From: Streptomyces sp. TG1A-8 | GTDB taxonomy: Bacteria > Actinomycetota > Actinomycetes > Streptomycetales > Streptomycetaceae | Length of the DNA stretch: 64,000 nucleotides | Assembly (NCBI RefSeq): GCF_030499535.1 | Contig: NZ_JASTLB010000001.1 | Span: forward strand, 5,208,001 to 5,272,000 | Reading direction: 5' to 3' | Shown here: positions 8,442 to 14,710 of the stretch, piece by piece | Layout of the letters: each line of letters starts with the position of its first letter | Numbering within the stretch: position 1 is the first letter of the stretch | The notes under the pieces: generated by a model | The model's input: the letters and a program-made list of their open reading frames with translations, nothing else | Told to the model about the DNA's origin: nothing | Databases searched by the model: none | Program-made: the position numbers and the translations under genes

Positions 8442-9862
8442 CCTCCTCGGTGTCTTCCGGGTTCCAGGGCGAGCGCGTCACCGTCGCCGGTCTCGGCGTC
8501 TCGGGCGTCCCGGCGGCCAAGGCGCTGCACGCGCGCGGCGCGGTCGTCACGGTCGTCAACGACGGCGACGACGCACGCGCGCGCGAGCAGGCCGCGGAGC
8601 TGGAGGCGCTCGGCATCACCGTGCGCCTCGGCGACGGGGCCTCCCTGCCGGAAGGCACCGGGCTGATCGTCACCGCGCCCGGCTGGCGGCCGGACAAGCC
8701 GCTGTTCCTGGCGGCGCGGGAGGCGGGCGTCCCCGTGTGGGGCGACGTGGAGCTGGCCTGGCGCCTCAGGGGACCCGGCGCGGCCCCCTGGCTGGCCGTC
8801 ACGGGCACCAACGGCAAGACGACCACCGTGCAGATGCTCGCCTCGATCCTGAGGGCGGCGGGCCTGCGCACGGCCGCCGTCGGCAACATCGGCGTCTCCC
8901 TGCTGGACGCCGTCCTCGGCGAGGAGACCCACGACGTCCTCGCCGTGGAGCTGTCCAGCTACCAGCTGCACTGGGCGCCCTCCCTGCGGGCGCACTCCGC
9001 CGCGATCCTCAACCTCGCGCCCGACCACCTGGACTGGCACGGTTCCATGGAGGCCTACGCCGCCGACAAGGGCCGTGTCTACGAGGGCAACCGGGTCGCC
9101 TGCGTCTACAACGTGGCGGACAAGCTCACCGAGGAGCTGGTGCGTGAGGCAGACGTCGAAGAGGGCTGCCGCGCCGTCGGGTTCACCCTCGGCACCCCGG
9201 CGCCCTCCCAACTCGGCGTCGTGGATGGCATCCTGGTCGACCGGGCCTTCGTGGCGGACCGGCAGAAGAACGCGCAGGAGCTGGCCGAGGTCCGCGACGT
9301 CGACCCGCCGGCCCCGCACAACATCGCCAACGCCCTCGCCGCGGCGGCCCTGGCGCGCGCCTTCGGGGTGCCCGCCCACGCCGTGCGCGACGGCCTGAGG
9401 GCCTTCCGGCCGGACGCCCACCGGATCACGCACGTCGCCGACATCGACGGGGTGGCGTACGTGGACGACTCCAAGGCGACCAACACCCACGCCGCGGAAG
9501 CCTCTTTGGCGTCATATGAACCGATCGTATGGATTGCGGGTGGTCTGGCGAAGGGGGCGACCTTCGACGAGCTGGTCACCAGGTCCGCCCGGCGGCTTCG
9601 CGGTGCCGTCCTCATCGGCGCCGACCGCGCCCTGATCCGCGAGGCCCTGGCGCGACACGCGCCGGAAGTACCCGTGGTCGACCTCGGCCGGACCGACACT
9701 GGGGCGATGCTCCAGGCGGTGACGGAGGCGAAGCGGCTGGCTCGGCCCGGTGACACGGTGCTGCTGGCGCCGGCCTGCGCCTCCATGGACATGTTCACCA
9801 ACTACAACCAGCGCGGTGACGCGTTCGCAGAGGCGGTCCGCGAACTCGGAGCGGGCGCCTGA
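8438..9862 (+). CDS. murD: UDP-MurNAc-L-Ala:D-glutamate ligase MurD
   Basis: Adds D-glutamate to UDP-MurNAc-L-Ala, the second Mur ligase step. From GTG 8438 it is 474 aa. The N-terminal Rossmann-like domain begins [19 protein letters not shown]. The ATP loop [13 protein letters not shown] lies near residue 120. [10 protein letters not shown] and [10 protein letters not shown] follow, and [12 protein letters not shown] near the C-terminus is typical of MurD. The GTG overlaps the mraY stop (GTGA). An in-frame ATG at 8423 would add five residues but fits less well. An 86-nt gap follows before ftsW. Confidence 0.95.
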
Positions 9863-9948: not shown

Positions 9949-11309
9949 ATGCCCGGTAGCCGGACAGGTCGTCCCCCCTCCAGCGGGCTGCCAGGAGGCC
10001 CCCGGCCCCACGGCCCCCGCGCGACAACCCCGTCCGGCGGCTCGTCACCCGGGCGCGCCGGGCCTGGGACCGCCCGCTGACCGCCTACTACCTGATCTGC
10101 GGCGGCAGTCTGCTGATCACCGTGCTGGGCCTGGTGATGGTCTACTCGGCCTCCCAGGTCACCGCGCTGCAGCTCTCGCTGCCCGGGTCGTACTTCTTCC
10201 GCAAACAGTTCCTCGCCGCCCTCATCGGCGGCACCCTGATGCTCGCCGCCTCGCGCATGCCGGTGAGGCTGCACCGGGCGCTGGCCTACCCGATCCTCGC
10301 CGGCGCGGTCTTCCTCATGGCCCTGGTCCAGGTGCCGGGGATAGGGATGTCGGTCAACGGCAACCAGAACTGGATCTCCCTGGGCGGCTCCTTCCAGATC
10401 CAGCCCAGCGAGTTCGGCAAGCTCGCCCTGGTGCTGTGGGGGGCGGACCTGATCGCCCGCAAGCAGGAGAGGAAGCTGCTGGCCCAGTGGAAGCACATGC
10501 TGGTGCCCCTGGTGCCGGTCACCTTCCTGCTGCTCGGGCTGATCATGCTCGGCGGTGACATGGGCACCGCGATCATCCTCACGGCGATCCTGTTCGGCCT
10601 GCTGTGGCTCGCCGGCGCCCCCACCCGGCTGTTCGTCGGCGTGCTGTCGGTCGCCGCCGCGATCGGTGTGGTCCTCATCAAGACCAGCCCCAACCGGATG
10701 GCCCGCCTCGCCTGCATCGGCGCCACCGAGCCCAAGTCCGGCGTCGCCGACTGCTGGCAGGCCGTGCACGGGATCTACGCCCTCGCCTCCGGCGGCCTCT
10801 TCGGGTCCGGGCTCGGCGCGAGTGTGGAAAAATGGGGACAACTCCCCGAAGCGCACACCGACTTCATCTTCGCCGTCACCGGTGAGGAACTGGGTCTGGC
10901 GGGGACTCTGTCGGTGCTCGCCCTGTTCGCGGCTCTAGGCTATGCGGGTATCCGCGTGGCCGGACGCACGGAGGACCCCTTCGTGAGGTACGCCGCGGGA
11001 GGCGTGACCACCTGGATCACCACCCAAGCGGTGATCAACATCGGTGCGGTGCTCGGCCTGCTGCCGATCGCCGGCGTCCCGCTCCCGCTGTTCTCCTACG
11101 GAGGGTCCGCCCTGCTGCCGACCATGTTCGCCATCGGGCTGCTGATCGCCTTCACGCGCGACGAGCCCGCTGCGCGGGCGGCGCTTGCGATGCGGCAACC
11201 CCGCTTTGGTAGAAAGCGGACGGGAGGCTCCGGTGCCGAGCGGGGGCCTCGGAGATGGAACACGATGCGACGGCGCGCCTCGGCGGCGCGCTCGTCCGGA
11301 GAGCGGTGA
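9949..11309 (+). CDS. ftsW: Lipid II polymerase FtsW, with an apparent 1-nt frameshift near the start
   Basis: SEDS-family septal glycosyltransferase that works with FtsI. The main body (TYYLIC-type first span through SYGGSALLPTMFAIGLL) is intact with about ten membrane segments, including NGNQNWISLGG, QPSEFGKLAL and GGDMGTAII. The expected start is ATG 9949 (MPGSRTGRPP), with GGGAGG 8 nt upstream. That frame runs into TGA at 10078. The FtsW body is in the next frame, which is closed upstream by TAG at 9957. One extra C in the run of six C at 9973-9978 would join them as MPGSRTGRPP-LQRAARRPP...DNPVRRL. In the body frame the first GTG is 10122, inside the first membrane span. A base-call error, a mutation or slippage are all possible. 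Confidence 0.85.
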
Positions 11310-11315
11310 ATTTCG

Positions 11316-12404
11316 GTGCATGTCGTACTCGCCGGCGGGGGAACCGCAGGCCACATCGAGCCCGCGCTCGCCCTCGCGGACGCCCTGCGCAGGCAGGACC
11401 CGACCGTGGGGATCACGGCCCTGGGCACGGAGCGGGGGCTGGAGACCCGGCTCGTTCCGGAGCGCGGCTACGAGCTGGCGTTGATCCCGGCCGTGCCGCT
11501 GCCGCGCAAACCCACCCCCGAGCTGATCACCGTCCCGGGCCGGCTGCGCGGCACCATCAAGGCCGTCGAGCAGATCATGGAGCGCACCAAGGCGGACGCC
11601 GTGGTCGGCTTCGGCGGTTACGTCGCCCTGCCCGGCTACCTGGCCGCCAAGCGGCTCGGCGTGCCCATCGTGATCCACGAGGCCAACGCCCGCCCCGGCC
11701 TCGCCAACAAGATCGGCTCCCGGTACGCCGCCCAGGTAGCCGTCTCCACGCCGGACAGCAAGCTCCGCAACGCGCGCTACATCGGCATCCCGCTGCGCCG
11801 CTCCATCGCCACGCTGGACCGCGCCGCCGTCCGTCCCGAGGCGCGCGCCCGCTTCGGCCTCGACCCGAACCTGCCCACGCTGCTCGTCTCCGGCGGCTCC
11901 CAGGGCGCCCGGCGCCTCAACGAGGTGACCCAGCAGGTCGCCCCGTGGCTGCAGCAGGCCGGCATCCAGATCCTGCACGCGGTGGGTCCGAAGAACGAAC
12001 TGCCGCAGGTGCACCAGATGCCGGGCATGCCCCCCTACATCCCGGTAAGTTACCTGGACCGGATGGACCTCGCGTACGCGGCGGCCGACATGATGCTGTG
12101 CCGCGCGGGTGCGATGACCGTCGCCGAGCTCTCCGCCGTCGGGCTCCCGGCCGCCTACGTCCCGCTGCCCATCGGCAACGGCGAACAGCGGCTCAACGCC
12201 CAGCCGGTGGTCAAGGCCGGCGGCGGACTCCTCGTCGACGACGCGGAGCTCACGCCCGAGTGGGTGCAGCAGAACGTCCTGCCCGTGCTCGCCGATCCGC
12301 ACCGGTTGTACGAGATGTCGCGCGCGGCGAGCGAGTTCGGCCGCCGTGACGCCGACGACCTGCTCGTCGGCATGGTGTACGAGGCGATCGCCTCGCGCCG
12401 TTAG
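11316..12404 (+). CDS. murG: Lipid II-forming GlcNAc transferase MurG
   Basis: Peripheral membrane GT-B glycosyltransferase that adds GlcNAc from UDP-GlcNAc to lipid I. The 362-aa protein begins with the glycine-rich loop HVVLAGGGTAGHIEPALALA. VVGFGGYVALPG and IHEANARPGLANK follow in the N-domain. The C-domain has LLVSGGSQGARRLNE, LCRAGAMTVAELSAVGLPA and PLPIGNGEQRLNA, which bind the UDP-sugar. The start is GTG 11316, six nt after the ftsW stop, with GGAGAG about 12 nt upstream. Part of the dcw operon. Confidence 0.96.
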   Translation: MHVVLAGGGTAGHIEPALALADALRRQDPTVGITALGTERGLETRLVPERGYELALIPAVPLPRKPTPELITVPGRLRGTIKAVEQIMERTKADAVVGFGGYVALPGYLAAKRLGVPIVIHEANARPGLANKIGSRYAAQVAVSTPDSKLRNARYIGIPLRRSIATLDRAAVRPEARARFGLDPNLPTLLVSGGSQGARRLNEVTQQVAPWLQQAGIQILHAVGPKNELPQVHQMPGMPPYIPVSYLDRMDLAYAAADMMLCRAGAMTVAELSAVGLPAAYVPLPIGNGEQRLNAQPVVKAGGGLLVDDAELTPEWVQQNVLPVLADPHRLYEMSRAASEFGRRDADDLLVGMVYEAIASRR

Positions 12405-13504: not shown

Positions 13505-14710
13505 GTGGCAGCACCGCAGAACTACCTCGCAGTCATCAAGGTCATCGGTGTCGGCGGCGGTGGTGTCAATGCCATCAACCGGATGATCGAGGTCGGTCTC
13601 AAGGGTGTCGAGTTCATCGCCATCAACACCGACGCACAGGCACTGTTGATGAGCGACGCCGACGTGAAGCTCGACGTCGGCCGTGAACTCACCCGCGGAC
13701 TCGGCGCCGGAGCCAACCCGGCCGTCGGCCGCAAGGCCGCCGAGGACCACCGCGAGGAGATCGAGGAGGTCCTCAAGGGGGCCGACATGGTCTTCGTGAC
13801 GGCCGGCGAAGGCGGCGGCACCGGCACCGGCGGCGCGCCCGTCGTGGCCAACATCGCGCGCTCGCTGGGCGCGCTCACCATCGGCGTGGTCACGCGCCCG
13901 TTCACCTTCGAGGGACGGCGCCGCGCCAACCAGGCCGAGGACGGCATCGCCGAACTCCGCGAAGAGGTCGACACCCTCATCGTCATTCCCAACGACCGGC
14001 TGCTGTCCATCTCGGACCGCCAGGTCTCGGTCCTGGACGCCTTCAAGTCCGCCGACCAGGTCCTGCTCTCCGGTGTCCAGGGCATCACCGACCTCATCAC
14101 CACCCCCGGTCTGATCAACCTCGACTTCGCCGACGTGAAGTCGGTCATGTCCGAAGCCGGTTCGGCCCTCATGGGCATCGGATCGGCCCGCGGTGACGAC
14201 CGTGCGGTGGCCGCGGCCGAGATGGCGATCTCCTCGCCGCTGCTGGAGGCGTCCATCGACGGCGCCCGGGGCGTGCTGCTCTCCATCTCCGGCGGCTCCG
14301 ACCTCGGCCTGTTCGAGATCAACGAGGCGGCCCAGCTGGTCAGCGAGGCCGCCCACCCCGAGGCCAACATCATCTTCGGCGCGGTCATCGACGACGCGCT
14401 CGGCGACGAGGTCCGGGTCACCGTGATCGCGGCCGGCTTCGACGGCGGCCAGCCGCCGGCCCGCCGAGACGTCCTCGGCTCGGCCTCCGGCCCCTCCCCG
14501 GTCCCGCGCCGCGAGGAGCCCGCTCCGGTCCGGCAGCCGGAGAGCCGGCCGTCCTTCGGCTCGCTGGGCAGCGTGACCCCCAAGGAGGAGCCGGAGCCGG
14601 CGCCCGAGCCGGTCGCGGAGATCCCGGTCGCCCCGCCGATTCCGCCGGCGCCGCGCACCTACGCGGACAGCGCGGCCGAGGAACTGGACGTACCGGACTT
14701 CCTGAAGTGA
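13505..14710 (+). CDS. ftsZ: Cell division GTPase FtsZ
   Basis: Tubulin-like GTPase that polymerises into the Z-ring. In streptomycetes it makes occasional vegetative cross-walls and the sporulation septa. The 401-aa protein has the GTP-binding signature [15 protein letters not shown] (about residues 100-114), [15 protein letters not shown] and the T7 loop [11 protein letters not shown] with its catalytic Asp residues. A variable Pro/Glu-rich linker follows. The conserved tail ELDVPDFLK is the docking peptide for partners such as SepF. Start GTG 13505 has GAGAGG 8 nt upstream. The stop overlaps the next GTG (GTGA). Confidence 0.98.

Follow-up and report, generated by a model that had tools for sequence, protein, structure and literature searches.

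The ftsW locus and its reading frames

The window analysed here, a stretch of 64,000 nucleotides, covers positions 5208001-5272000 of contig 1 of a Streptomyces genome (G000) that comprises 7,664,205 bases in four contigs, one of them 7.1 Mb long; the contig count and the 7.1-Mb contig suggest a long-read origin for the assembly. Within the window, ftsW lies in the division and cell-wall (dcw) cluster, 5' of murG (11316-12404) and ftsZ (13505-14710) and downstream of frames that we take to be mraY-like and murD-like. Its body is that of an ordinary FtsW: residues 2-347 of the 395-residue body match the FtsW equivalog model TIGR02614 at 369.1 bits against a cut-off of 337.5, PF01098 matches as well, and the frame ends at a stop at 11307-11309. 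The features of its unusual 5' end are collected in Table 1.

Table 1. Features at the 5' end of ftsW (window coordinates) and single-base frameshifts elsewhere in G000 (contig coordinates, with locus coordinates in brackets)
Feature	Position	Strand	Remarks
Three GACAC motifs, 3' end of murD-like frame	9654-9658, 9695-9699, 9752-9756 (9654..9756)	+	-295, -254 and -197 from ATG 9949
43-codon open frame	9949..10080	+	usual ftsW ATG to TGA 10078-10080; GTG 9946 in the same frame, just 5'
TAG closing the FtsW frame upstream	9957..9959	+	44 codons 5' of the aligned body, with no intervening ATG/GTG
FtsW-frame body lacking a standard start where one is usual	9960..11309	+	matches PF01098 and TIGR02614 along most of its extent
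Run of six C with the T that follows	9973..9979	+	site of the one-base deletion; 9973-9978 is exactly six C
CTGA overlap	10077..10080	+	short-frame TGA and CTG (Leu of WDRPLTAYY) of the FtsW frame; from sequence
GTG, first standard start (ATG/GTG/TTG) in the FtsW frame	10122..10124	+	inside the first membrane span, placed by eye
MFS transporter, split	G000:C1:5029438 (L136:9438)		clear shift; one base lost near GAGGGGGAG
Class-I glutamine amidotransferase domain	G000:C1:5179899 (L143:19899)		clear shift; one base lost about 30 codons before the end
GntP permease, split	G000:C1:5628154 (L186:8154)		clear shift; one base gained
Single-base shift close to a gene's 3' end	about G000:C1:5322996 (L151:2996)		probable; stretch divergent from G141

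Two frames had been described here in the first-pass annotation, and the sequence and its open reading frames confirm both. The ATG at 9949 follows a good ribosome-binding site, GGGAGGAG, and opens a peptide beginning MPGSRTGRPP, as in relatives, which stops at TGA 10078 and whose 43-residue product has no NCBIfam match. The FtsW frame is shut by TAG 9957 and offers no ATG or GTG, nor indeed any TTG, before 10122; with that GTG inside the first membrane span, window ftsW has no usable start from which a complete first span could be made. An AGGAGG at 9993-9998, within the tail-coding part of the gene, has no FtsW-frame start codon at a usable distance. Compared with other Streptomyces FtsW proteins (TIGR02614, PF01098; dcw cluster), that of the window shares the body, the genomic place, the N-terminal SRTGRPP and the membrane-proximal WDRPLTAYY, but is one base short at codon 11, and its usual ATG opens a frame other than that of the body. 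In the assembly, then, one base is missing from codon 11 of an ordinary ftsW, and the proposal of a frameshift in an otherwise intact gene is borne out by the normal body and by the open frame of relatives.

The three upstream GACAC motifs keep their order and spacing in all 15 relatives examined. Excerpts of one report describe the WhiA motif and ftsW as a WhiA target (PMC3781837), and by their sequence the three are possible WhiA-binding sites of the ftsW promoter; as they lie inside the murD-like frame, their retention may owe to coding. The window contains fewer GACAC than its shuffles do (108 against a mean of 178.5).

The start region in relatives

The 5' end was compared across 133 loci from three collections (29, 80 and 24), in which the same species may recur, such that the figure counts loci rather than independent species. 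In 129 of them an in-frame ATG or GTG precedes the first membrane span by 30-80 codons; two others (L026 and L030) have more distant starts within a longer open frame, and in the remaining two (L015 and L029) the FtsW frame is open as far as the available sequence extends. A frame closed by a stop and lacking a start is found in the window and in none of the 133, and it is this closure that exceeds chance expectation. Within the collection of 80 named loci, which may omit records very near the genome of the window and of which 79 are labelled Streptomyces (L048 is labelled Actinobacteria bacterium), the usual start is readable in 79, and L088, where it is masked by N, was counted among loci with a start by virtue of another GTG. 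It had been noted that a relative starting at the place of 10122 or of CTG 10077 would change the call; with an ATG or GTG upstream in 131 of the 133 loci, none is forced to do so. An alternative start in the window was likewise rejected, there being no ATG, GTG or TTG in place and the starts of relatives lying further up. The exact 18-base string over the deletion site occurs, among 323 genomes, in its own genome only, and 30 others carry it with one mismatch; these 323 genomes, a second draw from the genus, proved to be a subset of the first and brought no nearer relative.

The rest of the gene was compared in the same spirit. The ftsW body of the window carries three changes at columns that are at least 97% conserved, which places it tenth of 81, ties included. 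At 0.177, its dN/dS narrowly tops the 14 compared, the 13 near relatives ranging from 0.107 to 0.164, while among 14 the window ranks seventh for murG and third for the 3' part of murD. No further lesion was found in the ftsW body, which appears free of clear decay. As the protein of relatives is preserved on both sides of the site, in both frames, the deletion would have to be very young or not real.

Which base was lost

An SRT..PP motif before the membrane span could be found in 115 of the 133 loci, and the base that follows its two Pro codons is G in 110, A in five and C or T in none. Seven relatives read CCC CCC GTC at this point, and the CCC CCC TC of the window has the same codons minus the G. 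The suggestion that one added C restores the frame holds, but judged by the codons of relatives, the lost base is more likely the G of the GTC Val codon after CCC CCC. Loss of G requires one event, whereas contraction of a seven-C run would also need a codon change to CTC, whose first base is seen at this place in 0 of the 115 loci. Slippage within a homopolymer run is easier than the loss of a single base, however, so that G is favoured over C with some reserve. The six-C run itself is ordinary, the 64-kb window having 22 G or C runs at least six long. The 80 named loci (414 kb) had no run of seven or more, and the called coding frames of G000 (937 kb) hold 14 runs of seven and two of eight.

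A probable consensus error in the assembly

On balance we consider the cause to be, rather probably, a consensus error in the assembly, with the living strain making normal FtsW. Such an error would have removed one base in codon 11, probably the G of GTC, the strain would make a protein of the usual N-terminal layout, and reads would be expected to disagree with the assembly. Several observations count in its favour: the frame is open, with a start, in all relatives but the two whose sequence is cut off; the body deviates no more than those of others, its dN/dS being the highest but near the next (0.164); the contigs look like those of a long-read assembly; other single-base shifts occur within 1.2 Mb; and the 18-base string is private to its own genome.

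These other shifts come from a comparison of 1.2 Mb of G000 with 1.2 Mb of a relative, G141, that covered 519 of 830 G141 frames (585 kb) and, in the opposite direction, 495 of 802 G000 frames (569 kb). The raw pairs, 44 in G000 and 43 in G141, were noisy, many having one segment outside coding composition; 13 G000 and nine G141 sites were inspected as alignments and nine of the G000 sites were translated, in sets of three and six. Five of the set of six look like unshifted 5' ends that have an ordinary start, and one, 5322993, like a true shift close to the end of a gene. In all, G000 has three clear and one probable single-base frameshifts besides ftsW (Table 1), against at least three candidates in G141 (6072233, 6073550 and 6414451, from alignments only), counts that are lower bounds, the ftsW shift having itself escaped the screen. 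Of the clear sites, 5179899 was picked up by a separate screen and is absent from the list of 44 pairs; all three clear-site genes are whole in G141, from whose counterparts their names are taken. Positions 6072233 and 6073550 of G141 (contig 1) fall in one gene, with apparently several frameshifts relative to its 1033-residue G000 counterpart. With candidates about as numerous in G141, G000 does not stand out as rich in errors, and at this density of errors or young pseudogenes a single case within 64 kb is unsurprising.

Other points count against a consensus error. If a G was lost, the event is not a plain homopolymer contraction, and seven-base G/C runs are more frequent in G000 (17.5 per Mb) than in G141 (9.2), a comparison qualified by their G+C contents of 0.735 and 0.715. 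Systematic contraction of G/C runs in the assembly was rejected, runs of six and of seven being commoner than in G141. To our knowledge, moreover, none of the other frameshifted genes is essential. The case resembles the single-base indel errors of assembled genomes in that the loss falls at a C run within DNA rich in G+C, the rest of the gene is normal and relatives lack the lesion; it is unlike them in that the lost base probably lies outside the homopolymer.

A possible real and recent deletion

It is quite conceivable, if less probable than an error, that the isolate itself carries a recent one-base deletion, in which case the main start would yield a 43-residue peptide, FtsW would be lost or strongly reduced, and sporulation septa would fail in most conditions while hyphae grew. 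Excerpts of the literature describe ftsW nulls of S. coelicolor as white and failing to septate in most conditions, with division able to proceed without ftsW on low-osmolarity medium (PMC3781837), and ftsW as needed only for sporulation (PMC8092295). On those accounts Streptomyces does not need ftsW for growth; a strain that had truly lost it would be viable and could have its genome sequenced without the loss being noticed. Three further SEDS genes in G000 are stop-free, and the ftsW body does rank first of 14 in dN/dS, though narrowly; both sit comfortably with a real loss. Against it stand the lack of clear decay in the rest of ftsW, the position of the window as the sole closed frame among the loci examined, and the freedom from stops of WhiA and nine SsgA-family matches. 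A general loss of sporulation genes was rejected on the same ground, as it is not seen for WhiA and the SsgA-family genes.

Possible rescue of expression after a real deletion

That the deletion is real and expression of FtsW salvaged, whether by slippage or by restart, we regard as unlikely overall. Of the two routes, ribosomes ending at TGA 10078 might restart at CTG 10077 and make an FtsW without its 43-residue cytoplasmic tail, which we think very improbable. The overlap of CTG and TGA as CTGA would suit such a restart, and the tail, variable among relatives in length and sequence, may be expendable. CTG is a weak start codon, however, no good ribosome-binding site precedes it (the AGGAGG at 9993-9998 lies at too great a distance), and of 134 sequences searched, window included, 131 have the surrounding motif and 121 of those have CTGAC. 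The overlap thus follows from codons common to relatives and was not selected here. The stronger version, in which the deletion is fixed as well as real, the tail dispensable and a short leader frame gained by way of restart at CTG 10077, merits slightly less credence again.

Least probable of all, and in our judgement barely credible, is -1 slippage at CCC CCC, whether programmed or tolerated and whether of ribosome or polymerase, to give full-length FtsW; the first-pass annotation had left it open beside a sequencing error and a sporulation defect, and the comparison yielded no support for it. A P-site CCC could indeed re-pair one base back among the six C, and beyond the site the resulting protein would agree with that of relatives, but all 115 motif-bearing relatives read in frame without slippage and the C run is not kept: 69 of them write CCG CCC G.., seven share CCC CCC followed by GTC, and a six-C run anywhere from the codon preceding the two Pro codons to the one following them is present in 12. 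Runs of this kind are, besides, numerous in the window, and the 81 bases of RNA downstream (9984-10064) fold no better than chance, with a minimum free energy of -43.8 against a shuffle mean of -43.4 (z -0.12; equalled or bettered by 85 of 200 shuffles). The site therefore resembles programmed -1 ribosomal frameshifting in having a run where a tRNA could re-pair one base back, and is unlike it in lacking a conserved slippery site, a stimulator beyond chance and any relative with the same layout among the loci compared. None of the papers listed by a literature search concerned frameshifted translation of Streptomyces ftsW, to judge by titles and the starts of abstracts.

Implications

Neither a consensus error nor a real loss would alter current knowledge of how FtsW is expressed. 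If, as we favour, the missing base is an error, automatic annotation will label the gene as truncated or as a pseudogene, a label that should be corrected. If the deletion is real, the isolate is a naturally occurring mutant of ftsW, from which one could learn how far a streptomycete can sporulate in the absence of its main septal SEDS protein.
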